DNA from: Streptomyces sp. NBC_01235
GTDB taxonomy: Bacteria > Actinomycetota > Actinomycetes > Streptomycetales > Streptomycetaceae
Length of the DNA stretch: 64,000 nt
Assembly: GCF_035989285.1 (NCBI RefSeq)
Contig: NZ_CP108513.1
Location: 2,294,001 to 2,358,000 of the forward strand
Direction: 5' to 3'
In this document: in pieces, positions 4,101 through 51,135 of the stretch
Layout: the number at the start of each line of letters is the position of its first letter
Numbering within the stretch: the stretch's first letter is position 1
The notes under the pieces: generated by a model
Told to the model about the DNA's origin: nothing
Databases searched by the model: none
What the model saw: only the letters and a program-made list of their open reading frames with translations
Translations under genes and position numbers: made by a program

Positions 4101-4989
4101 CCGCACCGCAGCCGTACCCCGCTCGCTGCCCGCCCCCCGCCCACACGCGATACGCCGGGTCAGGCGCGCCGTGCGCGCCCCTCTCAAGCACTGCCTGTTG
4201 GCCCTCTGCGCCCTGACGATGCTGTACCCCGTCCTGTGGATGGTGGTCAGCTCGCTGCGTCCCAACAGTCAGATCTTCCGCAGTGCGGGACTCGCCCTGA
4301 TGCACCCGCGCTTCGAGAACTACAGCAACGGCTGGAACGCCTTCTCCCAACCGTTCAGTCACTACATGATCAACTCGGCGATCGTCGTCACCGGTGCGAT
4401 CCTCGGGAATCTCCTCGCCTGCTCCCTGGCCGCGTACGCGTTCGCCCGGCTCGAGTTCAAGGCGAAGCGCGTGTGGTTCGCCATCATGCTCGTCACGATC
4501 ATGCTGCCGGTCCACGTGATCATCGTGCCCCAGTACGTCCTGTACTCGGAGCTCGGCTGGGTCAACACGTTCCTGCCCCTGATCGTGCCGAAGTTCCTGG
4601 CGACCGACGCCTTCTTCATCTTCCTCATGGTGCAGTTCATCCGTGGCATCCCGCGCGAGATCGACGAGGCGGCTCGGATCGACGGCGCCGGGCACGCGCG
4701 GATCTTCTTCCACGTCATCCTGCCGCTGATGGTCCCGGCCCTGGCGACCACCGCGATCTTCACCTTCATCTGGACCTGGAACGACTTCTACACCCAGCTC
4801 ATTTACCTGACCGACCCGGACATGTACACCACACCTCTCGCGCTGCGCACCTTCGTGGACCAGCAGAGCGCGACGGACTGGGGCTCGGTGTTCGCCATGA
4901 GCGTCGTGTCGCTCGTCCCCGTCTTCCTCGTCTTCCTCGCAGGGCAGCGCTTCCTGCTGCGAGGCATCGCGACCACCGGCGGCAAGTAA
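4093..4989 (+). CDS. Carbohydrate ABC transporter permease (MalG/UgpE type)
   Basis: This is the second permease of the importer, 298 residues. An Arg-rich N-terminus is followed by about six membrane segments starting near ALCALTMLYPVLWMVVSS. The EAA loop is IDEAARIDGAGHARIFF. The ATG overlaps the end of the upstream permease gene, implying translational coupling and one-to-one production of the two subunits. It is followed after 102 bases by the binding-protein gene. Confidence 0.9.
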   Translation: MTDRTAAVPRSLPAPRPHAIRRVRRAVRAPLKHCLLALCALTMLYPVLWMVVSSLRPNSQIFRSAGLALMHPRFENYSNGWNAFSQPFSHYMINSAIVVTGAILGNLLACSLAAYAFARLEFKAKRVWFAIMLVTIMLPVHVIIVPQYVLYSELGWVNTFLPLIVPKFLATDAFFIFLMVQFIRGIPREIDEAARIDGAGHARIFFHVILPLMVPALATTAIFTFIWTWNDFYTQLIYLTDPDMYTTPLALRTFVDQQSATDWGSVFAMSVVSLVPVFLVFLAGQRFLLRGIATTGGK

Positions 4990-5091
4990 CCGCGGGGGCT
5001 ACTGCCGGACACGCGGGGGCGCCCGAGTCATGGCCGTTCGGGAGCACCGCAGCCACCGATCCGACCCACTTACCAGCCACAGGAGAACCAC

Positions 5092-6396
5092 ATGAACCCC
5101 AGCCCCTTCAGACGCGTCGCGATCGGGGCGGTCGCCTCACTCTCGCTCGTACTGACCGCTTGCAGCGGCAGCAGCACCGGATCCGCTCCCGAGCTCGGCG
5201 ACAAGCCGGTCACCATCCGCGCCACCTGGTGGGGAGCGGACGCCCGCGCCCAGCTCACCGACGAGGTCATCAAGGCGTTCGAGAAGAAGTACCCCAACAT
5301 CACGGTCAAGGGCCAGTACAAGGACTGGAACGGCTACTGGGACGCGCTCGCCACGACGACTGCGGCCAAGGACTCCCCCGACGTCGTCCAGATGGACGAG
5401 CTGTATCTCGCCTCGTACGCCGACCGCGGAGCGCTGTACGACCTCGGCAAGGCCAAGAAGCTCCTCAGCACCTCGCAGTTCGACGACCAGGCACTGGCCA
5501 CCGGACAGATCGACGGAACGCAGTACGCGCTTCCCGTCGGCCTCGGCGTCATGTCCGTCCTCGTGAACACCGACCTGTTCAAGAAGTACGGCGTGCAGGT
5601 TCCCGACGACAAGACGTGGACGTGGGACGACTACGCCAAGATCGGGAAGGAGCTCACGGAAAAGAGCGGTGGCAAGATCCACGGTGTGGCCGGCGCGCCC
5701 GGCTTCTACGCCGGCGATGTCAAGTACTGGGCTCGTCAGCACGGTGAAAACCTCTTCGACAAGGACGGCAACGTCTCACTGAAGCCCGAGACGCTCGCCG
5801 GCATGTGGAAGTACGGTCTGGACCTGCTCTCCTCCGGAGCCAGCACCAATACGTCGACGATGGTCGAAGACCTGACCGCGGGCGTCACCGCCGGCAGCTT
5901 CGCCACCGGCAAGGCGGCCATGACGGGGGCGTACAACACCCAGATCACCGCCATCCAGCAGGCCGCGGGCGCCCACGTGCAGCTGCTGCAGATGCCTCGC
6001 GTCGGCGACACCAAGGCGAACTTCTTCAAGCCTTCCATGTACTGGGCTGTCTCGAGCCAGAGCGCGCACCCGGCCGAGGCGGCCGCGTTCATCAACTTCA
6101 TGCTCAACGACCCCAAGGCCGCCGACATCCTCAAGACGGAGCGCGGAATCCCCGCCAACAAGGAGATGCTGAAGCACCTCCAGCCGGGCCTGGCCGGGAC
6201 CGACAAGGCTGCAGCCGACTACATGAACGCCGTGACCCCGGGTGAGTCGCCGGTCGTGACCCCCAACGGCGGAAGCGGCATCGAGCCGGAGCTGCAGCGC
6301 TACAGCCAGGAGGTCTACTTCAAGAAGACCTCACCCGAAGCCGCCGCGAAGGCCTTCATCAAGGAGCTCCAGGGCGAGATCGACGCGGCCAAGTGA
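5092..6396 (+). CDS. Extracellular sugar-binding lipoprotein of the ABC importer
   Basis: The 434-residue solute-binding protein has a lipoprotein signal: charged start (FRR), hydrophobic stretch, then lipobox LTAC with the modified Cys near residue 24. The mature protein shows the family-1 binding fold, including VTIRATWWGADARAQ at the start, DVVQMDELYLASYAD, and LPVGLGVMSVLVNTDLFKK. It should capture the oligosaccharide outside the membrane and deliver it to the two permeases just upstream. A GGAG precedes the ATG. Gene order permease-permease-binding protein is less common than binding protein first. Confidence 0.9.
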   Translation: MNPSPFRRVAIGAVASLSLVLTACSGSSTGSAPELGDKPVTIRATWWGADARAQLTDEVIKAFEKKYPNITVKGQYKDWNGYWDALATTTAAKDSPDVVQMDELYLASYADRGALYDLGKAKKLLSTSQFDDQALATGQIDGTQYALPVGLGVMSVLVNTDLFKKYGVQVPDDKTWTWDDYAKIGKELTEKSGGKIHGVAGAPGFYAGDVKYWARQHGENLFDKDGNVSLKPETLAGMWKYGLDLLSSGASTNTSTMVEDLTAGVTAGSFATGKAAMTGAYNTQITAIQQAAGAHVQLLQMPRVGDTKANFFKPSMYWAVSSQSAHPAEAAAFINFMLNDPKAADILKTERGIPANKEMLKHLQPGLAGTDKAAADYMNAVTPGESPVVTPNGGSGIEPELQRYSQEVYFKKTSPEAAAKAFIKELQGEIDAAK

Positions 6397-6482
6397 CCTC
6401 CTTCCGGGGGCCGTCGCCGCTGCCCACGGCCCCCGGGAGCCCCACGAGAAGTGGGTCAGGAACCAAGAGAGAGAAAACACCC

Positions 6483-7598
6483 ATGCCCAGCCCCCGGCCG
6501 CCGTACCGCGTGGCCATCATCGGCACCGGCGGTATCGCCCACGCTCATGCCGAAGCCCTCACCGAACTCTCCGAACGCGCCCGGCTGGTCGCCGTCGCCG
6601 ACCTCGACCCCACGCGTGCCGCCGAGTTCGCCGACCGGTTCTCCGTGTCGCACGTCTTCAACGACCCGCAGGCTCTGCTGGAGAGCGAAGGCCTCGATCT
6701 CGTACACATCTGCACGCCCCCGCAGACCCACGTACCGCTGGCATCCATGGTGATGCAGGCCGGCGTCACCGCCCTGGTGGAGAAGCCGACGGCGCTGAGC
6801 CTGCGCGAGATGGACCAACTGGCCACGGTGCAGGAGCAGACCGGCTCCAAGGTCCTGACCGTCTTCCAGCACCGCTACGGCGCGGCGGCGGTACGCCTGC
6901 GCCGGCTGGCCCACTCCGGCGCACTGGGCCGGCCACTGGTCGCCACCTGCGAGACCCTCTGGTACCGGCCCGACGCGTACTTCGAAGTGCCATGGCGAGG
7001 ACGCTGGGACGTCGAGGGCGGCGGCCCCACGATGGGACACGGCATCCACCAGTTCGACCTCCTGCTGTCGGTCCTCGGACCCTGGTCCCAGATCGCTGCA
7101 CTCGCCGAACGCCAGGCCCGGCCCACCGACACCGAGGACGTCTCGGTCGCCGCCGTCCGGTTCGACAACGGAGCCCTCGCCACGGTGGTCAACTCCCTGC
7201 TGTCCCCCCGGGAGACCTCGCGCCTGCGCTTCGACTTCGAATACGCCACGGTCGAACTCGAACACCTCTACGGCTACCGCGAGGAACACTGGCGGTTCAC
7301 CCCAGCCCCCGGCCACGAGGGTCTCTCGGACCTCTGGACCGACGGTGCCGAGCCGGACATCACGAGCGGCCACAGGCTCCAGATCGAGGCCGTGTTCGAC
7401 GCCTGGGAAACCGGACAGGAACCCGGCGTCTGTCTGCAAGACGCACGCCGCACGCTGGAGTTCGCGGCGGCGACGTACGCCTCCGCCTTCCGCGGTGTCC
7501 GCGTCGCCGCGGGCGAACTGACCGACGACGACCCGTTCGCGCTCAGCATGGACGGCGGCGCCGTGCCGTGGGAACGCGTCAAGGAGGCCCTCGTATGA
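6483..7598 (+). CDS. Gfo/Idh/MocA-family sugar oxidoreductase
   Basis: The 371-residue protein opens with a Rossmann fold (VAIIGTGGIAHAHAEAL) for NAD(P). EKPTALSLREMDQ follows, carrying the family's conserved Lys, and then the C-terminal substrate domain with GHGIHQFDLLLSVLG, where the conserved His sits. The frame is open from 6393, overlapping the upstream stop, but ATG 6483 with a GAGAGAG sequence upstream gives the normal N-terminus. Its stop overlaps the ATG of the next gene, so the two are coupled. It probably oxidises an imported sugar or uronate. The substrate is unknown. Confidence 0.85.
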   Translation: MPSPRPPYRVAIIGTGGIAHAHAEALTELSERARLVAVADLDPTRAAEFADRFSVSHVFNDPQALLESEGLDLVHICTPPQTHVPLASMVMQAGVTALVEKPTALSLREMDQLATVQEQTGSKVLTVFQHRYGAAAVRLRRLAHSGALGRPLVATCETLWYRPDAYFEVPWRGRWDVEGGGPTMGHGIHQFDLLLSVLGPWSQIAALAERQARPTDTEDVSVAAVRFDNGALATVVNSLLSPRETSRLRFDFEYATVELEHLYGYREEHWRFTPAPGHEGLSDLWTDGAEPDITSGHRLQIEAVFDAWETGQEPGVCLQDARRTLEFAAATYASAFRGVRVAAGELTDDDPFALSMDGGAVPWERVKEALV

Positions 7599-41049: not shown

Positions 41050-41197
41050 CAAAGTCGTCATAAGTTCGTTCATGAAGTTCATCAGCACCAAGTCGTTCAT
41101 GCCGTTCGTCTACTACCGCGTCGTCCTCGGCATCGTCATCATCGCCCTGGTCGCGACGGGCGCGCTCAGCCCGCATGCGGCGGAGTCGGCGGGCTGA
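41050..41197 (+). pseudogene. uppP: C-terminal fragment of undecaprenyl-diphosphatase (uppP/bacA)
   Basis: The frame ends SFMKFISTKSFMPFVYYRVV then LGIVIIALVATGALSPHA. This is the last membrane segment of Streptomyces UppP proteins, including the STKSF loop. The rest of the gene is absent. The fragment is directly joined to the integrase end, which points to an excision or illegitimate recombination event in or near uppP. Confidence 0.7.
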
Positions 41198-41352
41198 CCC
41201 CCTCCGTCCCCGCCGCTCCCCGCCGAACTCACCGAACTCACCGAACTCACCGACGAGCCGCACCGGCTGATCGATCAGCCGTGACCAACCCCATATCGGC
41301 GCGCGTAGCCGTCCGGTAGCGCAGTGTCAGTGCTTCCGCCTAGGCTTGGCCC

Positions 41353-41532
41353 ATGTCCCCCAATTCTGTGACCTCTGGTTCCGTGCGGTCTGCTGCCGAG
41401 TTAAACGAGCAGATCCGGGCCCTTTGGCTGCGCGCGGGCGGCTCGTTGTCGGCCCAGGAGCGGGCGGAGTACGAACTGCTGGTGGTGGAGTGGGCCGCGG
41501 CGATCCGCGGCGAGGTGGTCACGGCCGCCTGA
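41353..41532 (+). CDS. Small conserved hypothetical protein with a TTA codon (59 residues)
   Basis: ATG 41353 opens a frame encoding a Ser-rich start and an amphipathic helical body (AELNEQIRALWLRAGGSLSA, ERAEYELLVVEWAAAI). Short proteins of this kind occur in streptomycetes but I know of no function. The codon at 41401-41403 is TTA, so translation would depend on the bldA tRNA. Upstream there is only a weak ribosome site. Coding character is good. Confidence 0.55.
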   Translation: MSPNSVTSGSVRSAAELNEQIRALWLRAGGSLSAQERAEYELLVVEWAAAIRGEVVTAA

Positions 41533-41604
41533 GCCACGCCTCCGCGCACCGGGCACGTTCGGGCCTGCCCCTGATCCATGACCGGTCGGCGATTCCGAGC
41601 GGCT

Positions 41605-42134: not shown

Positions 42135-42243
42135 TCACCTACCGCCGCAGATGGCCCGCGCCTCGTCCGCGTACCGCACGGTCGCCTCGCCCGGGAACCC
42201 CGGTTGCAGGGAGCGGTGGGGCAGGGGATTCAGGTGCAGGTCC
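42135..42243 (-). pseudogene. C-terminal shard of a DUF4291 protein
   Basis: The minus-strand frame gives DLHLNPLPHRSLQPG then EATVRYADEARA and a stop. Bases 42162-42243 match 43297-43378, part of the larger DUF4291 fragment, almost throughout. It abuts a TerD shard on the other strand. Together they look like a copy of the 43147-45924 segment with the centre deleted. Confidence 0.7.
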
Positions 42244-42245
42244 GC

Positions 42246-42439
42246 ACGAGACCGCCTTGATGCTTGGCTCTTTCCGCCGCGGGTCCAACGGAGACTGGGA
42301 TTTCGTCCTCGGCGGCAAGGGCTGCACGGGCGGCCTGGAGGAACTCGTTCAGGACTTCGGCGTCGAGGTGGAACAGATCGGCCTGAGCCCGGATGCATGC
42401 CCGCCGGCGACACGGCGGTGGGCTGTCAGGACTGCTTGA
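42246..42439 (+). pseudogene. C-terminal shard of a TerD-domain protein
   Basis: ETALMLGSFRRGSNGDWDFV followed by LGGKGCTGGLEELVQDFG repeats the end of the intact Mrr-TerD protein. Bases 42248-42372 align with 45796-45920. The frame then runs on to 42439 without the original stop. Nothing upstream of the last 42 residues of the TerD domain remains. Confidence 0.7.
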
Positions 42440-42472: not shown

Positions 42473-42838
42473 TCAGGCGGTGTGCCGGTCCGTGGAGAGC
42501 AGCCAGCGCCAGCGTTGGCGTTCCGTGATGAGGGTGGTGGCCACGAGGAGGGACACGAGGACTGCCGCATAGATGGGCCATGCCAACCATGCGGCGATCG
42601 CGGCCGCGGTGAGCTGGAGCAGCACGAGCAGGATGGTGACCGCACCCGGGACAGGGATGATCACCTGCGCCTTGTCTCCCGGAGTGGAGAAGACGGTCGG
42701 CAGGCCGATCAGTATCACCACCGCCAGGACGGCGAGCAGCCATGAGTACGTGGACAAGGCCCACGGGGTGGCCACCCAGGCGACGAGTTCCGCGGTGAAG
42801 CGCAGGGCGGATGCGATGCGGTCGTCCGGTCGTTCCAT
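42473..42838 (-). CDS. Small four-helix membrane protein
   Basis: 121 residues. After a charged start (MERPDDRIASALRF) come four hydrophobic segments, for example WLLAVLAVVILIGLPTVF and VTILLVLLQLTAAAIAAWLA. The pattern resembles small YrdB/DUF2568-like membrane proteins, but I cannot confirm the family. It lies between DUF4291/TerD fragments and is not obviously part of them. Confidence 0.65.
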   Translation of the reverse strand: MERPDDRIASALRFTAELVAWVATPWALSTYSWLLAVLAVVILIGLPTVFSTPGDKAQVIIPVPGAVTILLVLLQLTAAAIAAWLAWPIYAAVLVSLLVATTLITERQRWRWLLSTDRHTA

Positions 42839-43146: not shown

Positions 43147-43609
43147 CTACCGCCGCAGGTGGGTCAGCACCTCGTCCGCCACCGGGTACGGCCGTTCCTC
43201 CGGCAACAGCGCGGCCGCACGGTCGAGTTCACCCGCACGCACCCGGGCGTGCACCTCTCTCGCCAGCGGCGTCACGTCCTCGATCCCGACGATCCACTCG
43301 TCCGCGTACCGCACGGTCGCCTCCCCCGCGAGCCCCAGTTGCAGGGAGCGGTGGGGCAGGGGATTGAAGTGCAGGTCCCGTTCCGGGTCCCACTGGGCCC
43401 TCGCCGGGGATCGCTTCAACTGCCGCTTCCAGTCGGCCTGTTCACCGTGCACATCCGGGACGTGGTGCGAGAGACACGCATTGCGCAGCGCCCACTCGGA
43501 GCCGTCGCGGGTGATCTCGACGGCCAGGACGGTCTCCTGGCATCCTTCGCGGCCCAGCCACAGCGGTACATCATCCACAGGAAGCTGGGCTTGATCCATG
43601 TCAAGCCGT
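43147..43609 (-). pseudogene. DUF4291 protein, C-terminal three quarters only
   Basis: The frame starts inside the family core with TWIKPSFLWMMYRCGWA, but with a frame difference after it, and continues ETVLAVEITRDGSEWALRNA, RSPARAQWDPERDLHFNPLP and EWIVGIEDVTPLA to the stop. A normal DUF4291 protein has about 50 more N-terminal residues. Such a segment exists at 46111-46270 on the opposite strand and stops at the same motif. The function of DUF4291 is unknown. Confidence 0.75.
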
Positions 43610-43863
43610 GTTCACAGACCTTTCAGGGTGCGGTGCACGCTGCGAGATCGATACTGGCGCATGCAACCGTTCGGGCACTACGACCAGGCACGGCCTGGTT
43701 ACCCTCCAGTCACGTTGACCTGCGGGGATGGACCGATCGAGCTTCCTTTGGTGAGTGGATGTGCGGGACGGCGATTGCTGGCTAGAGTCATCTCGTTACA
43801 ACTGGTTGTGGGGACAACCAAGTGCCTTTCGGCTGCCAACGTCCCGGGGAGGGCCCGCAGCAC
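43610..43863 (+). promoter_or_regulatory. Upstream region of the Mrr-TerD gene
   Basis: It contains the 52-base repeat at 43694-43745, and a possible -10 TAGAGT at about 43786-43791. A GGGGAGGG lies about ten bases before ATG 43864. No gene is supported. Confidence 0.4.
43694..43745. repeat. 52-base direct repeat, left copy
   Basis: Nearly identical (about three differences) to 46275-46326 in the same orientation. It includes GGTTACCCTCCAG and GACCTGCGGGGATGGACCGA. The two copies flank the Mrr-TerD gene. Confidence 0.8.
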
Positions 43864-45924
43864 ATGAGTCGTCGTTCTACTGGTTTTGTCGGTGTCTGGG
43901 CTGAAATGCAACGGCAGCAACAGCGCCAACTGGAAGCCGAAACCAGACGGCGGAGACAGCAGGAGCGGGAGGCGCGGGCCTACCAGCGGCGAGCTGCCCA
44001 GAGCCACCGCGAGTACCGGCAGGCAGAGGCTCTGCGGCGCACGGAGGAGCTGAACGCGCAGGTTGCGTCCTTGCAAAGTCTTCTTGCCTCGGGTTGCCGG
44101 GCGCCGGCCTTCAGGGCCGCCTCCCTCATGCGGCCTGAGGAGGTACAGCCCTTCGCTCCCGGACCGTTGGCACAGCCGGTGCCCATGCCCGATTTCAGCC
44201 ACTACCAGACCCAGAGCGGTTGGACTGCAAGTCGCCGGGCCCAGGCTCAGGCCGAAGCACGGGCGCGCTTCGAGCGGGACTGGCAGGCTGCCCAAGCCGC
44301 GGAGGCCCAGCGACAGCAACAGTTGGCGTCGTACCAGCGGGAGTACCAGCAGTGGGTCGATACTCAGCTGGCTGATGTACGGCGGCACAACACGGGCGTC
44401 GTCGCGACAACCGAAGGGGTAAGGCGCCGGGATCCCGATTCCGTGATCGAGTACTTCTCCGCAGCTCTCTACGCCTCGACGGCATGGCCGGAAGGCTTCC
44501 CCCGTCAGGTGGCAGCAGCCTACGACCCACAGGCCCGGCAATTGGTCCTGGACTGGGAGTTGCCCGCCTACGGCGTCGTACCGGAGGTCAAGGCCGTTCG
44601 GTACATGTCCGGGGTCGACCAGGACAAGGAGACTCCGCGCCCGGTAAGCCAGCGCCGTGCTCTGTACAGGGAGGTCCTGGCTCAGTGCATGCTGCTTGTT
44701 CTCCATGAGCTGTTCGCCGCAGATGAGCTGGGTGCGCTTGAGTCGGTGACCTTGAACGGGTTCGTCGACGGGCATGACCCCACGACAGGCAGACCGGGCG
44801 AGATCTTCCTCGCAACTGTCATGGCCTCGCGCTCTTCGTTCCGCGACTTGCACCTGGCGCAGGTGGACGCAGGTAGTTGCCTGGCAGACGCACTGCGCGG
44901 ACAGCTCTCGGCCCGACCGGATCAGCTCACACCGGTACGGCCGAGCAGGCGGCCTCAGGATGTCGGGAACCGTGTGGTCTCCCACGGCGGCGACGAGGAA
45001 CCGGACCTCTTGGCCATGGACCCGATCGCTTTCGAGAATCTCGTTGCCGATCTCTTCCGGGCCATGGGGATGCAGGCGGTGACCACCCAACGCTCCAACG
45101 ACGGCGGCGTGGACGTCGACGCACTGGATCCGACACCGATCCGGGGCGGCAAGATCGTCGTGCAGGTGAAGCGCTACCGCAACACGGTGCCGCCCACCGC
45201 TGTGCGTGACTTGTACGGAACCGTGCAGGACGCCGGCGCCAACAAGGGTGTCCTTGTGACGACGTCAGGGTTCGGTCCCGGCTCACACACTTTCGCCAAC
45301 GGCAAGCCGCTCGAACTCATCTCGGGCGCCGAGCTTGTGGACCTGTTGCATCGTCATGGTCTGCGTGGGCAGCTTGGTGACGGTGGGCGCCAAGTCCCAG
45401 CAGAGCCGACGCCCTCGGTGCCGGACACTCGGCTGCCAGACGATTACAACGTCTTGGGCATGTCGTGGACCGGAAGCGTTGCCTTGGACGTGTGTGCTCT
45501 CGTCTGCCGTGGCAACCGGGTCCTCAGCGACGATCACTTCGTCTTCTTCAACAACCCTCAGACGCCGGACGGCTCGGTGCGTGCTCTCCCCGCCACTGCG
45601 CCTGACAAGGCCGCGATCTGTGTCTCCTTCGACGGGTTGCCCGATGAAGCCGACCGGTTCGTACTCGTGGCAGCCATTGACCCGGAGGTCAACCCGGACG
45701 CCGACCTCTCTGGTTTTACAGACGCGTTCATCCGCCTGCTCGACCCGGAGCTGGCCGAGATGGGACGGCTTGAGGTCTCGGACGGCCGGTCGCAGGAAAC
45801 CGCCTTGGTACTCGGCTCCTTCCGCCGAAGGACGAACGGAGACTGGGACTTCGTGCTGGGCGGCAAGGGCTACACGGGCGGCCTGGGGGAACTCGTTCAG
45901 GATTTCGGCATCGAGGTGGAGTAG
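43864..45924 (+). CDS. Mrr-type restriction nuclease fused to a TerD domain
   Basis: 686 residues in three parts. Residues 1-180 are a Gln/Arg/Ala-rich coiled coil (QRQQQRQLEAETRRRRQQER). Residues about 180-375 are an unrecognised domain (LYASTAWPEGFPRQVAAAYD). The Mrr nuclease domain (about 383-500) starts MDPIAFENLVADLFRAMGM, with catalytic residues in SNDGGVDVDA (Asp417) and VVQVKRYRN (Gln434, Lys436), all intact. TerD at about 540-686 contains VLGMSWTG, DDHFVFFNNPQTPDGS and NGDWDFVLGGKGYTGG. Mrr enzymes cut modified foreign DNA, and TerD proteins bind calcium and appear in stress and phage-response gene sets. The fusion suggests a sensor-nuclease for defence. Confidence 0.88.
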   Translation: MSRRSTGFVGVWAEMQRQQQRQLEAETRRRRQQEREARAYQRRAAQSHREYRQAEALRRTEELNAQVASLQSLLASGCRAPAFRAASLMRPEEVQPFAPGPLAQPVPMPDFSHYQTQSGWTASRRAQAQAEARARFERDWQAAQAAEAQRQQQLASYQREYQQWVDTQLADVRRHNTGVVATTEGVRRRDPDSVIEYFSAALYASTAWPEGFPRQVAAAYDPQARQLVLDWELPAYGVVPEVKAVRYMSGVDQDKETPRPVSQRRALYREVLAQCMLLVLHELFAADELGALESVTLNGFVDGHDPTTGRPGEIFLATVMASRSSFRDLHLAQVDAGSCLADALRGQLSARPDQLTPVRPSRRPQDVGNRVVSHGGDEEPDLLAMDPIAFENLVADLFRAMGMQAVTTQRSNDGGVDVDALDPTPIRGGKIVVQVKRYRNTVPPTAVRDLYGTVQDAGANKGVLVTTSGFGPGSHTFANGKPLELISGAELVDLLHRHGLRGQLGDGGRQVPAEPTPSVPDTRLPDDYNVLGMSWTGSVALDVCALVCRGNRVLSDDHFVFFNNPQTPDGSVRALPATAPDKAAICVSFDGLPDEADRFVLVAAIDPEVNPDADLSGFTDAFIRLLDPELAEMGRLEVSDGRSQETALVLGSFRRRTNGDWDFVLGGKGYTGGLGELVQDFGIEVE

Positions 45925-46110
45925 CTCGACCTGGGTCCTGAGCCGCTGCGTTGGATGAGGGTTGTGAACGGAGCTTGGTGAACCACGTCAAGCCGCGTGC
46001 GTGACTCTTGCGCGTCTCCAGGGCGGTACTGCGTCCGACGTGCACCGTCGCAACAAGCGGCGGTCGAAAATCGGTGGCCTCCTGACCTGGCCGACTCCAC
46101 GCTGTACGCC
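45925..46110. other. Region between Mrr-TerD and a DUF4291 fragment
   Basis: No gene is supported. It carries CCACGTCAAGCCGCGT (45983-45998), matching CCATGTCAAGCCGTGT at 43596-43611 in the same orientation at 14 of 16 bases. These may mark junctions of past rearrangement. Confidence 0.4.
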
Positions 46111-46270
46111 ATGGAACAACCGCACCGCAGGATCCGCGCGCTTCACACGGCATCCACGATCACCGTCTACCAGGCGTACTCCCCTGAAATCGGACTGCCC
46201 GCCATCCGCGACGGCCGATTTCCCGCCGCGAGGAAGCCTGACCGCATGACGTGGATTAAGCCCAGTTTCC
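46111..46270 (+). pseudogene. N-terminal fragment of a DUF4291 protein
   Basis: ATG 46111 starts EQPHRRIRALHTASTITVYQ, with AYSPEIGLPAIRDGRFPAAR and then RMTWIKPSF, the usual first 50 residues of DUF4291 proteins. Homology stops at 46270 and the next bases are the 52-base repeat that otherwise precedes Mrr-TerD. The missing part matches the opposite-strand fragment at 43147-43609. Confidence 0.75.
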
Positions 46271-46274
46271 CGGT

Positions 46275-46326
46275 CCTGGTTACCCTCCAGCCACGTTGAC
46301 CTGCGGGGATGGACCGACCGTGCTTC
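46275..46326. repeat. 52-base direct repeat, right copy
   Basis: Matches 43694-43745. It directly follows the break in the DUF4291 fragment. The sequence from 46327 to 46639 has no supported gene. Confidence 0.8.
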
Positions 46327-46639: not shown

Positions 46640-47767
46640 TCAGCGGATCTCATCCGGCTTGACCACGAGCCAGTTCTTGTCGGCTGTCACCGGCTGGCCG
46701 AGCTCCTCCTGCCGGGCCGCGTTCGCCTTCTGCATGTCCTGGATCTGCGTAAGGTACTTGTCCTTGCGGTTGACCCAGATCCGGGTCCCGCCGTGTTCCA
46801 CGTCGGTGGACTGGAAGAGCATGGGGCCGTCACTGACCGGGGTGTCGCCCGCGACCAGAATCGGCTTGCGCCACTGGTCGATGTACGTGTCGATGGCGGC
46901 GGGCTTGCCCTGGAACCAGGTCAGCGGGGCCCACAGGGTCGGGGTCAACTTGTCGTTCGCGAGCTCGCGCGGGTCGTAGCGGCCCTCGGCGATCTCCTTG
47001 CGGGCGGTGGTGAGATTCCCGGTGACCGGGTCCTTGAGCAGCATGGAGACGCCGATGACGTTCTGCGGCTTGGCGCCGTAGCCGTGTTTGGGGTTGGACA
47101 GCACGTCCCGGACCAACTCCTCACTGGCGGCGCTGACGACGTAGACCTCGATGCCGTTGTCCCGCAGGGCCTGGTACAGCTCCTGCATGCCCCGGTAGAA
47201 CTGCGGCGGCTGCACCTGGGTCTTCGTCAGCTGGTCACCGACGTAGTACTCGGCCGGGATGGGCTTGCCGTATGCGAGCAGGTCGTCGACGTACCCCTTG
47301 AGCTGCTTCAACGTGAATCCGGAGAAGATCTGGGCAACCCAGGGGTAGCAGACCTGGTCGTCGATCTCGCAGAGCCGGTTGTAGTAGCTGTAGAGACTCT
47401 CCTGATGGTTCTTCGTGTCCTTGAAGGGGATGAGCCTCAGGGACCGGTCCATCGTCGAGCGCTTGAGCTTCCCCTTCATCTCCAAGTAGGGGAGCAGCGA
47501 CTCCTCGAGGTCGTACCGGTAGGTTGTGTTGTCAGCGTCGAAGACCGCGTACGCACCCTGGTGGGCGTGCTCTTTGATGACCTGGCCGAGCTTTTCGGCG
47601 ACCGGAGCGGGCCAGTGCTGCAGCTGGGCCGCCACGGCCTTCCCGTCCGTGCCCGCCGCCGTCGCCTCCTGGCGCGGCCATAGCCCGACGGCGCTCGCGA
47701 TCAGCAGCGCTGCGAGCGCGCTCATCACCGCCGACAGGCTGAGCCGTCTTCCCCTGCGTCGTGTCAT
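46640..47767 (-). CDS. Exported HAD-superfamily phosphatase (phosphorylcholine-phosphatase-like)
   Basis: 375 residues from ATG 47767 with AGGGAGG upstream. An Arg-rich start and hydrophobic segment (LSAVMSALAALLIASAVGLW) form a signal peptide or anchor. HAD motif I is FDADNTTY with Asp77 and Asp79. Motif II lies near VYVVSAASEE, and motif IV near VAGDTPVSDGPML. Inserted cap sequences (YSYYNRLCEIDDQVCYPWV) resemble bacterial phosphorylcholine phosphatases. It would act outside the membrane on a phosphate monoester. A frame extension to 47959 has no start support. Confidence 0.8.
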   Translation of the reverse strand: MTRRRGRRLSLSAVMSALAALLIASAVGLWPRQEATAAGTDGKAVAAQLQHWPAPVAEKLGQVIKEHAHQGAYAVFDADNTTYRYDLEESLLPYLEMKGKLKRSTMDRSLRLIPFKDTKNHQESLYSYYNRLCEIDDQVCYPWVAQIFSGFTLKQLKGYVDDLLAYGKPIPAEYYVGDQLTKTQVQPPQFYRGMQELYQALRDNGIEVYVVSAASEELVRDVLSNPKHGYGAKPQNVIGVSMLLKDPVTGNLTTARKEIAEGRYDPRELANDKLTPTLWAPLTWFQGKPAAIDTYIDQWRKPILVAGDTPVSDGPMLFQSTDVEHGGTRIWVNRKDKYLTQIQDMQKANAARQEELGQPVTADKNWLVVKPDEIR

Positions 47768-48230
47768 CTGGCCTCCCTTGAGGAGAGTGGAACGCCCCGT
47801 GATTGCTCCGCCCCCTCGGAGCATGGCGGGGCGGCAACGAGGTTCGAGTACAGCGTCAAGCGCGGCAATCATGGCCCGGCTATTGCTTGATACGCAACAG
47901 GATGCGCAATGTGAACTCGATGGAGTTGTAGTCCCGGGAAGAACACCGAGGCCGTGCACCTTCTTGCGAAGCCTTGGGGCGAATCAACGGGACTCCTCGG
48001 TCCGCCGGTATCGAGGCGGGGCTCGCGGCCCTGCCCCGGGACGAGGTCCTCCTGCTCGTACGGGAACAGGGCACAGGCGACCGGGACACGTTGTGAAGCT
48101 GCTCGAAACGCCGGGTCGCGCCCCTGGCTTTTCACACACTGCGTCCGACCACGCCGGGGGAAGTGGCGGCTGACCAGCCGCGCACATCGCTGTGCCCTGT
48201 GCGGAACACACAAGAGGAAAGGGGCACCGC
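47768..48230. other. Intergenic region with a possible gene fragment
   Basis: One plus-strand frame from about 48003 to a stop at 48096 reads GIEAGLAALPRDEVLLLVRE and has coding character, but no start or recognised family. Nothing else is supported. Confidence 0.3.
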
Positions 48231-48434: not shown

Positions 48435-48437
48435 TCC

Positions 48438-48474
48438 GGCGGCAAGGACTGCACGGGCGGCTTGAGGGAACTCC
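48438..48474 (+). pseudogene. Third TerD shard (37 bases)
   Basis: GGCGGCAAGG followed by CTGCACGGGCGGC matches the GGKG-TGGL section of the TerD ends at about 42320 and 45860. Only this short piece is present, in a region with a DUF4291 fragment nearby. Confidence 0.45.
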
Positions 48475-48639
48475 GGGCGCTGCGCCACGCCTGCCTGTCG
48501 AGTTACCTCTGCGGACTGCATCCCGATGCGGTGAACTGCAGGCAAAGTGGCTTCCCACCGCAGGGACGCTGTCCGTCCCACCTACGAGAAGAGCAACTCG
48601 CCGGCAGCCGTTCACAGTCATGCCAGCAGCATGAAAAAG

Positions 48640-48830
48640 GTCTGTGAACGCTGCTTGATCATCCACGTCATGCGCTCCCGGCTCCACGTCGACGGGAAGC
48701 GGCCGGTGCGGGCCGCCGCGTGGCCGATCTCCGGGCGGTACGCCTGGTAGACGGTGAGCGTGGACTCGGTGTGGCGGGCACGGATGCGGAACTTGGGTTC
48801 CGCCTCGACAGGCCGGTCGTTGGGGTTGTT
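48640..48830 (-). pseudogene. Third DUF4291 shard, N-terminal
   Basis: On the minus strand KFRIRARHTESTLTVYQAYR and then AARTGRFPSTWSRERMTW is a second, diverged DUF4291 N-terminus. Homology breaks at the MTW motif, the same place as in the other two fragments. The sequence after the break contains GTTCACAGACCTTT, also found beside the break at 43611. Upstream codons give an Asn/Pro-rich stretch (NAPNNNPNNPND). Confidence 0.65.
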
Positions 48831-48999
48831 CGGGTTGTTGTTCGGGGCGTTCACGGCAGCAGCCTGACCGGCCATCCGTCAGTGGGTCACCGAATTACGC
48901 GTCCCCCGTACGAAATCCCGCGCCCCGATCCCGTATCGATCCCCGACCGATGCCGCACAGACCTTGGCCGAGCAGCCCCCATGCCCAACACTCGGGCCC

Positions 49000-49494
49000 A
49001 TGACGCAGCGTGTGGAGCTCGCCACCGTGATGGACCGGCTGGCCGTCGACGGGTTGATCACCGACTACGCGGTGGCCGTCGACGACGGTGACTGGTCGGC
49101 CTACCGGGAACTGTTCACATCGGACGGGCGGGCGGACTACCGCTCCGCCGGCGGAATCGAGGGGGATGCGGTAAACGTCGCCTCGTGGCTCGCGGAGAGC
49201 ATGGGGGTGTTCGCGATGCGGCAGCACCTCATCGTCAACCGCCGGGTGCGCTTCGGGATCCTGGACCAGGACACGGGCGACACCGCCCAGGTACAGGCCG
49301 ACTACGTCAACCCGATGCGGTTGGCCACGACCGGTGACGGCGACGGCTCCCCGGCCGGCGCGCCCGATTTCGTCTGCGGCGGCCGGTACTCCTTCGGTCT
49401 GCTGCGGACGTACGACGGCTGGCGGGTGCGTGACGTGGTCGTACGGGAGAAGTGGCGGCGGTTGCCGGGTGAGCCGAAACTCGCCCTGTCGTAG
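49000..49494 (+). CDS. SnoaL-like (NTF2-fold) protein
   Basis: 164 residues from ATG 49000; an in-frame TTG at 48964 has no support. The fold begins DRLAVDGLITDYAVAVDDGD, with YRELFTSDGRADYRSAGG and end VVREKWRRLPGEP, as in SnoaL_4 proteins. These include small dehydratases, cyclases and isomerases. It stands 51 bases before lnt. The substrate is not predictable. Confidence 0.8.
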   Translation: MTQRVELATVMDRLAVDGLITDYAVAVDDGDWSAYRELFTSDGRADYRSAGGIEGDAVNVASWLAESMGVFAMRQHLIVNRRVRFGILDQDTGDTAQVQADYVNPMRLATTGDGDGSPAGAPDFVCGGRYSFGLLRTYDGWRVRDVVVREKWRRLPGEPKLALS

Positions 49495-49545
49495 ATCGTC
49501 CGCGGCGCGCACACTGGAGGAACCCACCGGGTAGGGAGGTGCCTC

Positions 49546-51135
49546 ATGGAGATCCGCAAGACGCTCGGCCCCTGGCTCACCTCCCCCTGGCGGCGTACGG
49601 CCGTGGCGGCCCTCGCGGGCGCGCTGCCCGTGCTCGCGTTCCCGGCGCCGGCGCTGTGGTGGTGGGCCTATGTCGCGCTCGTCCCCTGGATCCTGCTGGC
49701 CCGCTCCGCGCCGACGGGAAGGCGGGCGGCGTGCGACGGCTGGAGCGGCGGATTCGGCTTCATGCTGGCCATGCACCACTGGCTGCTGCCGAGCCTGCAC
49801 GTGTTCACGCTCGTGCTGGCCGCGCTGCTGGGCGCGTTGTGGGCGCCATGGGCGTGGCTGGTCCGGCGGTTCCTCGCCGAAGACGCCGAAGGCACGGTCC
49901 CCTCTCGCGGGCGGCTGTTCGCCGCGCTCCTCGTGCTGCCCTCGGGTTGGCTGGCCGTGGAACTCGTCCGCTCCTGGCAGGGGCTCGGCGGGCCGTGGGG
50001 CATGCTCGGGGCCAGTCAGTGGCAGGTGGAGCCCGCGTTGCGGCTCGCCTCCGTCGGCGGGGTGTGGCTGCTCAGCCTCCTGGTGGTGGCGGTGAACGTC
50101 GCGGTCGCCGTCCTCGTCTCCGTTCCGGCGTCCCGGGTGCCGGCCGTCGCCGGTCTCGTCGCCACAGCCGCCACCGCCTCGGCCGCGTGGGTGTGGGCGC
50201 CTCGCCCCGACGCCGACGGGCGGGCCCGGATCGCCGTCGTGCAGCCGGGCGTGGTCGACGGCCCCGACCGACGCTTCGACCGCGAGGAGGAGCTGACCCG
50301 CCGTCTGGCCGGGCAGGACGTCGACCTGATCGTCTGGGGCGAGAGCAGTGTCGGGTACGACCTCGCCGAACGGCCCGATCTGGCCAAACGCCTGGCGGAG
50401 TTGTCCCGGTCGACCGGCGCCGACATCCTCGTCAACGTCGACGCCCGCCGCTCCGACCGGCCGGGTGTCTACAAGAGCTCGATCCTCGTCGGCCCGGACG
50501 GCCCGACCGGCGACCGGTACGACAAGATGCGGCTGGTGCCGTTCGGTGAGTACATACCGGCCCGTTCCCTGCTCGGCTGGGCCACCTCCGTCGGCAAGGC
50601 GGCCGGTGAGGACCGGCGGCGCGGCAGCGAGCAGGTCGTGATGAACGCCGGTCCCGGCCTGCGCATCGGGCCGATGGTGTGCTTCGAGACGGCTTTCCCG
50701 GACATGAGCCGGCACCTCGCCGACGACGGCGTGGACCTGCTGGTCGCCCAGTCCTCCACCTCCTCCTTCCAGCAGAGCTGGGCGCCCGAGCACCACGCGT
50801 CGCTGGGCGCGCTGCGTGCCGCGGAGACCGGGCGCCCGTTCGTGCACGCCACCCTCACCGGCGTCTCCGCCGTGTACGACGCGAGCGGCCGGCGCATCGG
50901 CTCGTGGCTGGGCACGGAGGCGAGCACGACGGCCGTCTACGACGTCCCGCTCGCCGACGGCGTCACCCCGTACGTCCGCTACGGCGACTGGCCGGTCGAC
51001 CTGGCCCTGCTGGTGCTCGGCGCGCTGGGGCTCTCGGAGGGGGCCCGGACGGTCAGACTGCGGCGGACCGGTCCCGCACCGCTCGGACCACCCGCTCGCA
51101 CAGTTCGTGAGTCGCCAGCGCGTCCCGGGCGCTGA
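49546..51135 (+). CDS. lnt: Apolipoprotein N-acyltransferase
   Basis: 529 residues with about six to seven membrane segments followed by a nitrilase-like catalytic domain. The Glu-Lys-Cys triad is clear: Glu266 in VWGESSVG, Lys327 in YDKMRLVPFGEYIP and Cys379 in VCFETAFP. It transfers the third acyl chain to the N-terminal Cys of lipoproteins in the membrane. AGGGAGG precedes the ATG. Its last 83 bases overlap the convergent oxidoreductase gene. Confidence 0.92.
   Translation: MEIRKTLGPWLTSPWRRTAVAALAGALPVLAFPAPALWWWAYVALVPWILLARSAPTGRRAACDGWSGGFGFMLAMHHWLLPSLHVFTLVLAALLGALWAPWAWLVRRFLAEDAEGTVPSRGRLFAALLVLPSGWLAVELVRSWQGLGGPWGMLGASQWQVEPALRLASVGGVWLLSLLVVAVNVAVAVLVSVPASRVPAVAGLVATAATASAAWVWAPRPDADGRARIAVVQPGVVDGPDRRFDREEELTRRLAGQDVDLIVWGESSVGYDLAERPDLAKRLAELSRSTGADILVNVDARRSDRPGVYKSSILVGPDGPTGDRYDKMRLVPFGEYIPARSLLGWATSVGKAAGEDRRRGSEQVVMNAGPGLRIGPMVCFETAFPDMSRHLADDGVDLLVAQSSTSSFQQSWAPEHHASLGALRAAETGRPFVHATLTGVSAVYDASGRRIGSWLGTEASTTAVYDVPLADGVTPYVRYGDWPVDLALLVLGALGLSEGARTVRLRRTGPAPLGPPARTVRESPARPGR

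Follow-up and report, generated by a model that had tools for sequence, protein, structure and literature searches.

The stretch of DNA analyzed here (hereafter the window) comprises 64,000 nt of Streptomyces sp. NBC_01235 (NZ_CP108513.1, positions 2,294,001 to 2,358,000), and coordinates are given in window numbering. It carries a gene for a 686-residue protein that joins an N-terminal coiled coil and linker, an Mrr nuclease domain, and a TerD domain, amid broken pieces of DUF4291 genes. A sequence-only reading of the window had noted this fusion and the fragments around it and had proposed that DUF4291 and the TerD/Mrr protein form a module, perhaps a phage-defense or stress system.

Pfam confirmed both domains of the fusion, Mrr_cat at residues 383 to 495 (E = 1.6e-31) and TerD at residues 537 to 681 (E = 7.2e-25). 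The region that had been described as an unrecognized domain is present, but it does have a counterpart: the PADLOC profile mREase_IV (PDLC03663) matches residues 13 to 498 (E = 2.6e-54; profile positions 21 to 526 of 544). Residues E391, D417, Q434, and K436, presumably the catalytic residues of the Mrr family, are invariant in 81 of 81 Mrr-TerD sequences (80 relatives and the window protein), so the nuclease site that had been read as intact is also kept among homologues. With an Mrr catalytic domain and an intact predicted active site, the protein would belong among the Mrr-family type IV restriction enzymes. It is like the methyl-directed enzymes of PDLC03663 in residues 13 to 498 and in the invariant Mrr-type residues, and differs from them by its C-terminal TerD domain. 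It is plausibly an Mrr-type nuclease with a putative sensory TerD domain and would act as a self-contained type IV-like nuclease under TerD regulation. The family comprises 2182 proteins at E ≤ 1e-3 among 8000 scored candidates, with the Mrr and TerD domains co-occurring in all 120 of the matches listed. A scan of genome contigs gave 206 Mrr-TerD relatives, the best 80 of which were taken as loci L014 to L093.

A DUF4291 gene broken at one codon

Profile searches with a DUF4291 hidden Markov model (HMM) located pieces at 43186 to 43545 and 43539 to 43607 (−), 46132 to 46272 (+), and 48660 to 48785 (−). Together with repeat and tblastn searches, they recovered the DUF4291 pieces on both sides of the nuclease gene and the DUF4291 and TerD bits at 42.1 to 42.4 and 48.4 to 48.8 kb that the sequence-only reading had pointed out; one intact DUF4291 gene lies elsewhere in the same genome, at 7.09 Mb. 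The two pieces that flank the nuclease gene do not pair up as a single gene. The 46.1-kb (+) piece has the orientation of DUF4291 copies carried as cargo (see below), and the half that completes the broken host gene is the (−) piece at 48.66 to 48.80 kb. The features that define the locus are as follows.

43147 to 43607 (−), C-terminal part of the host DUF4291 gene, HMM positions 40 to 180, in two frames
43593 to 43623 (−), cassette/DUF4291-C junction, left arm AAAGGTCTGTGAACACGGCTTGAC plus core ATGGATC, L score 47.9 bits
43600 to 45979 (+), Mrr-TerD cassette, about 2.38 kb, a single gene bounded by junctions
43864 to 45924 (+), Mrr-TerD gene, 686 aa
45960 to 46006 (−), decayed cassette-cassette junction 3' of the Mrr-TerD gene, core GTGGTTC, full score 31.4
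48640 to 48666 (−), DUF4291-N/cassette junction, core GTGGATG plus right arm ATCAAGCAGCGTTCACAGAC, R score 39.4 bits
48660 to 48800 (−), N-terminal half of the host DUF4291 gene, residues ~3 to 49, cut at the ATGACGTGG codons (HMM positions 2 to 44; tblastn 3 to 49)

The host gene is broken at one codon, ATGAC-GTGGATC-AAGCC. Inverted 23-bp arms (43601 to 43623 and 48636 to 48658, 91% complementary) lie at the outer breaks, which are therefore not random decay. The L and R scores listed above compare with control-window 99th percentiles of 0.15 and −2.7, respectively. An invertible-DNA switch, as DUF4291 halves on opposite strands might indicate, was rejected: the (+) piece continues to residue 53 without an arm, and the armed other half is the one at 48.66 to 48.80 kb.

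The same break recurs in other genomes. In L016, L018, L025, L026, L041, and L048, as in the window, the outer DUF4291 pieces end or start at residues 46 to 51 with arms, the N-terminal piece running on into ATCAAGCCGCGTTCACAGAC and the C-terminal piece being preceded by GTCTGTGAACRCGGCTTGAC. The arrangement of the Mrr-TerD cassette is also found in L016 (7736 to 10117) and L025 (7788 to 10128). Smaller DUF4291 pieces are broken elsewhere in the gene, both in other loci (e.g., L016, L031, and L038) and in the window (42.2, 46.27, and 48.5 kb). These look like products of decay, and the window pieces are as expected of decayed remnants. In locus L209 (genome G308, 5860 to 7059), the first half of DUF4291 is interrupted by a 399-aa gene, presumably TnpB-like judging from its start, with no cassette arm detected at the break.

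Cassettes and their arrays

The arms face each other in pairs across 7 bp, giving the junction GTCTGTGAACGCGGCTTGAC-RTGGRTC-ATCAAGCCGCGTTCACAGAC, a near-palindrome of about 47 bp. Cassettes have the consensus start ATCAAGCCGCGTTCACAGAC and the consensus end AAAGGTCTGTGAACRCGGCTTGAC, and the 7-bp core RTGGRTC, which is supplied by DUF4291 codons 47 to 49, joins each cassette to its neighbor or to the split gene. To the left, conservation continues for four more bases (AAAG), to the right for about one, and the sequence common to cassettes ends about 50 bp around the site. A position weight matrix built from 64 junctions picks out such sites sharply.

Base counts within the core point to the place of strand exchange. 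Of 18 recognizable DUF4291-N junctions, 17 have G at core position 1, versus 19 of 68 internal ones (p = 3e-7), and core position 5 is A in 11 of 12 DUF4291-C junctions versus 32 of 68 internal ones (p = 0.004) and in 25 of 25 intact DUF4291 genes; rows that could not be recognized as DUF4291 (9 of 27 N-type and 14 of 26 C-type) are excluded from these counts. The two positions thus place the exchange point inside TGG. A 7-bp target duplication was rejected, since the two gene junctions do not agree at position 5, which is what exchange inside TGG predicts.

Full junctions (at most 2 mismatches) were found in 27 of 392 Streptomyces genomes and single arms (at most 1 mismatch) in 28, with a maximum of 6 per genome; the reversed control for the junction and the control for the arm both gave 0. 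In a draw of genomes from the order, 15 of 187 carried the junction and none of the 16 outside Streptomyces did, the reversed control matching 1 of 187. The decayed junction of the window (45972 to 45994, 3 mismatches) is the single match to the full junction in its own genome. A full junction also occurs on the 970-kb Streptomyces cadmiisoli plasmid NZ_CP030074.1 (locus L139, G301:C2), the sole significant plasmid match. The site has no exact match in IMG/VR and none better than E = 3 among phages, and a parent insertion sequence (IS) or phage for the cassettes was not found in the IMG/VR, phage, and plasmid searches.

Neighboring sites delimit 76 intervals with a median of 1425 bp, a count that includes a duplicate genome (L041 = L140), one locus, L017, whose sites lie on both strands, and a few long intervals that probably represent chromosomal DNA. 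Cassettes hold mostly one or two genes in about 0.6 to 3 kb, and the same cassettes turn up at different loci with other neighbors. In the largest array, that of G024, about 23 kb lie between the DUF4291-C end and the DUF4291-N end, with 11 sites and hence about ten cassettes. Single-linkage clustering at 30% identity (proteins of at least 90 aa, L041 dropped; genome sets may overlap) sorted 123 cassette proteins into 76 clusters, 14 of which have members from at least two loci. Polarity relative to the site is uniform in 11 of these 14, including Mrr-TerD (6 of 6), and for two clusters it is ambiguous, at L017 alone.

Orphan genes make up most of the cargo, together with some defense-like ones. 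Of 30 interval proteins scanned with Pfam, 18 match no family at E = 0.01 and none is a recombinase; the others include DUF3885, SUKH/SMI1, an AlkZ-like glycosylase, NB-ARC with TPR, a SpoIIE phosphatase, an M48 peptidase, and ATP-grasp. The commonest cluster, cluster 0 (e.g., L138, 5882 to 6553), has 14 members from 12 loci, mostly of about 190 to 250 aa and of uniform polarity. The single member scanned has no Pfam match, and at least two shorter members may belong to another family. The 47-bp site offers a direct route to listing many unexplored cargo genes, some of them defense-like.

DUF4291 is itself among the cargo. Intact copies lie inside cassettes in L136, L138, L140, and L141, in the orientation opposite to that of the split host gene. 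In a tree of 33 DUF4291 rows (31 different), with each copy oriented by reference to its closest site at up to 6 kb, one clade of 14 (support 99/99) takes in 11 of 12 cargo-oriented copies, and the six host-oriented copies, two of which are one gene, lie outside it. The existence of such cassettes accounts for DUF4291 fragments on both sides of the nuclease gene. The (+) piece at 46111 to 46272 is probably the remnant of a DUF4291 cassette, assigned to the cargo type by orientation and by eye, off the tree. If arrays do move as cassettes, an intact DUF4291 cargo would let an array restore the gene that it breaks and offer a fresh target.

For Mrr-TerD, a recognized arm lies at 12 of 81 genes when weak scores are allowed, 141 to 266 bp upstream or 27 to 49 bp downstream (left arms in 6, right arms in 9; control windows, 0.6% and 0.2%). 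Placing the 13 cassette-borne rows on a tree of 83 proteins takes 11 label changes, and well-supported branches force at least 6 of these. The cassette-borne rows all fall in one supported clade of 50, within which the labels cluster no more than chance, and over the whole tree label changes were as low in 77 of 500 shuffles. This scatter suggests that Mrr-TerD is mostly an ordinary gene that entered the cassette pool. Some unmarked copies occupy the same hotspot between the same flanks in L033, L038, L043, L054, and L088, perhaps with decayed sites.

Conjugative elements at the same codon

A survey of 46 genomes picked for weak or multiple DUF4291 matches revealed DUF4291 halves 7.6 to 19 kb apart in five of them (G241, G094, G306, G316, and G280). 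All five intervening elements (L203 to L207) encode a protein of 504 to 506 aa directly inside the DUF4291-N junction. Pfam identified it in L204 and L205 as a large serine recombinase (Resolvase, Recombinase, and Zn-ribbon domains), and the recombinases of L203, L206, and L207 are 82 to 88% identical to these or to each other. L204 also encodes GntR, and L206 encodes RepSA and FtsK. With a serine recombinase, a RepSA-type initiator, and an FtsK-like translocase, domains that were sampled across the elements, these are actinomycete integrative and conjugative elements (AICEs). L206 also carries a DUF4297 and HerA gene pair (4535 to 7448) matching PADLOC defense proteins (E = 2e-32 and 3e-217), and genes in L207 (3234 to 6147) match this pair in length and have similar starts. 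Behind the AICE of G280 come Mrr-TerD and AbiEi/AbiEii-like genes, enclosed by a pair of DUF4291-C copies. An AbiEii/AbiEi-like gene pair next to Mrr-TerD, between two DUF4291-C copies, is seen at 6889 to 8332 of L202.

The AICE ends resemble those of the cassettes. Their left arms score 32 to 45 bits versus −5 to 9.5 in intact DUF4291, and their right arms 20 to 25 bits versus a maximum of 5.7 in 20,000 random 19-mers. Compared directly, the two AICE ends are inverted repeats of each other centered on TG, in agreement with exchange inside TGG at the cassette junctions and with the 2-bp exchange reported for the serine integrase of Tn4451 (PMC5704250). Integrase homologues (E ≤ 1e-60; up to 3 candidates scored per genome) occur in 31 of 392 genomes. 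The seven copies of at least 80% identity (five whole, two fragments) all adjoin DUF4291-N; for those of 51 to 66% identity, the flanks examined contained no DUF4291. In IMG/VR, the integrase has only 27% matches, at 3 loci. G306 has both an AICE and cassettes.

We consider it likely that Mrr-TerD is the cargo of one cassette in an integron-like array at DUF4291, bounded by attachment (att) sites of a DUF4291-specific serine integrase. The large serine integrase of the AICEs, or a sister enzyme, would serve the cassettes in trans. Working alone or together with a directionality factor, it would join cassette ends into attP circles, these would enter an intact DUF4291 gene as attB, and cassettes would stack by recombination between the att sites of neighbors. 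The attP/attB pair and the ~505-aa integrase are defined well enough for a direct recombination test. The cassettes may be deletion derivatives that retained the start of the integrase gene. Here there is only a hint, CCATG within 18 nt after the right arm at 10 of 95 sites versus 1.9% of controls (p = 1e-5), with a motif picked after seeing some of the sequences; with the search interval misplaced, it occurs at 1 of 95 sites versus 3.3% of controls.

Several observations count against this interpretation. The cassette right arm lies 3 nt (ATC) further from the core than that of the AICEs, so a different integrase may serve the cassettes. Integrases of the closer class (at least 80% identity) are found in 0 of 27 full-junction genomes, and the window's own genome has no integrase match at E = 1e-60; with the offset, this makes a sister enzyme possible. 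The class of 51 to 66% identity is present in five of the 27 (G024, G264, G323, G370, and G373). Core position 1 is G in 7 of 12 DUF4291-C junctions versus 19 of 68 internal ones (p = 0.05), and the structure alone would also be compatible with transposition with a 3-bp target duplication. Family 6 of the 14 is mixed in polarity and two more are ambiguous at L017; 69 of 81 Mrr-TerD genes have no recognized site. Neither a circular form nor cassette movement has been observed, and the mechanistic steps are a proposal.

The offset and the lack of a close AICE integrase in the array genomes also speak for the same cassettes being moved by an unrelated enzyme, either a tyrosine recombinase, which inverted arms around a 7-bp core would fit as well, or another large serine recombinase. 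A candidate for the latter is a 492-aa protein (28% related) encoded just outside the DUF4291-C array end in L138 (3108 to 4586, −), with fragments 78 to 89% identical to it in L126. In the other loci examined, it has only 25 to 41% matches (AICE-type integrases and viral contigs), and cassettes and the AICE integrase have arm sequence, target codon, and exchange point in common, which makes an unrelated enzyme unlikely.

Rather less probable still is that the cassettes are IS mobile insertion cassettes, with the arms as terminal inverted repeats, a DDE transposase acting in trans, and a duplication of about 3 bp (TGG). Inverted ends, variable cargo, TGG on both cassette sides, and the lack of a recombinase among the scanned cassette proteins would suit such elements. 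Against them, the 392 genomes hold no multi-copy element with these ends (a low-copy parent would be compatible) and few arms per genome, the target is a single codon of a single gene, and the arms are shared with serine-integrase AICEs at that very codon.

As for DUF4291 and Mrr-TerD being functional partners in defense or stress, with the pieces as decayed copies of a two-gene system, the association itself is real. Of the 80 loci of relatives, examined with flanks of up to 8 kb, 22 contain DUF4291 sequence (23 of 81 when the window is counted), which bears out the expectation that the two families would meet in other genomes, and cargo-type intact copies lie near Mrr-TerD in L015, L025, L028, and L033. 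The partnership does not follow from it: the remaining 58 loci have no DUF4291 in the stretch examined (some stretches being short), and DUF4291 is found in 316 of 392 Streptomyces genomes. The break at a single codon, the recombination-site arms, and the many unrelated genes between such arms indicate that DUF4291 is an insertion site rather than a partner, and we regard this part of the sequence-only reading as very improbable. More generally, genes that recur beside DUF4291 may have a common landing site rather than a common pathway. If the mosaic arose simply through homologous recombination and duplication of DUF4291 and TerD copies, the duplicate pieces with internal deletions at 42.1 to 42.4 and 48.4 to 48.6 kb would be explained, but this origin is hardly credible when the sequence shared by cassettes ends about 50 bp around the site and the junctions are nevertheless exact and the polarity largely fixed.

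Known systems and neighboring features

Integrons explain the stockpiling and shuffling of single genes in many proteobacteria. The DUF4291 cassettes are like integron gene cassettes in being small units with many orphan genes and largely fixed polarity (11 of 14 families), arranged in arrays and drawn from a common pool. They differ in their near-palindromic junction anchored in a protein-coding gene, and the Mrr-TerD cassette differs further in the 141 to 266 bp that precede its start codon (six loci), a stretch that may hold its own promoter. No IntI was found among the 30 Pfam-scanned cassette proteins, a scan that covered neither every ORF nor, for IntI, whole genomes. Complete integrons are reported missing from Actinobacteria (PMC9024848). 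Possible, and held only tentatively, is the wider proposal of an integron-like system of Streptomyces in which a pool of one- and two-gene cassettes of fixed polarity would use one DUF4291 codon and a serine integrase lent by a conjugative element, with DUF4291 itself as cargo. If cassettes are moved by a serine integrase, Streptomyces would have an equivalent of integrons built on another enzyme class.

The staphylococcal cassette chromosome (SCC) relies on Ccr large serine recombinases and one target gene, includes recombinase-less elements and tandem insertions, and has elements of tens of kb. The DUF4291 cassettes resemble it in the proposed large serine recombinase, the single target gene, the recombinase-less elements, and the tandem insertion. 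They differ in target gene and in size, holding only one or two genes each. Cis-mobilizable elements (CIMEs), as described in PMC5704250, lack their own recombinase, retain att ends, and stack at the integrase site of integrative and conjugative or integrative and mobilizable elements. The cassettes share these traits of accretion: no recombinase turned up among the cassette proteins scanned, and an autonomous element that uses the same target has att ends akin to theirs, with the right arm offset by 3 nt. Unlike CIMEs as set out there, they mostly hold one or two genes in about 0.6 to 3 kb, stand up to about ten in a row, and recur in different company. The AICEs with serine recombinases of PMC3218068 encode RepSA, FtsK-like, and GntR proteins, and some are inserted in protein-coding genes. 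The elements in DUF4291 are like them in these three proteins and the recombinase; the DUF4291 target and dependent cassette arrays do not figure in the available part of that account. A word search of 5.39 million papers did not find the term DUF4291, and among the matches listed for Streptomyces cassette arrays, serine-integrase cassettes, and Streptomyces integrons, no title described such a system. DUF4291 has no match in the PDB at E ≤ 1.

The other features of the window around the cassette are remnants, further candidate cargo, and the flanks of the hotspot.

41068 to 41540, left flank of the hotspot, conserved in other species
42162 to 42393, remnant of a further locus copy: DUF4291-C piece (−, 42162 to 42243) adjoining a TerD tail (+, 42243 to 42393), with the intervening ~2.4 kb lost
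42473 to 42838 (−), 121-aa gene, a site-bounded cassette in L145 and L208 (88 to 89% identical)
46111 to 46272 (+), DUF4291 N-terminal fragment, residues 1 to 53, in the orientation of array-borne cargo DUF4291
46275 to 46326 (+), 94% duplicate of part of the Mrr-TerD cassette 5' region (43694 to 43745), a remnant of a further copy
46640 to 47959 (−), HAD-like gene between the decayed junction and DUF4291-N (Pfam E = 3.9e-5, below the cut-off)
48437 to 48545 (+), remnants: TerD tail (48437 to 48473) and DUF4291 middle piece (~48477 to 48545)
48982 to 51135 (+), right flank of the hotspot, two genes, which we take to be SnoaL-like and apolipoprotein N-acyltransferase-like

Genes 95 to 96% identical to the HAD-like gene lie in the array regions L191 and L210. 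Both flanks of the hotspot are conserved, and the locus between them occurs in three states. DUF4291 is intact there in L014, where only the right flank was seen, and L133, where both were seen and a cassette site lies 1.4 kb from the intact gene. At the orthologous flanking locus, DUF4291 is split by an AICE in L206 and by cassettes in the window, L141, and L147.

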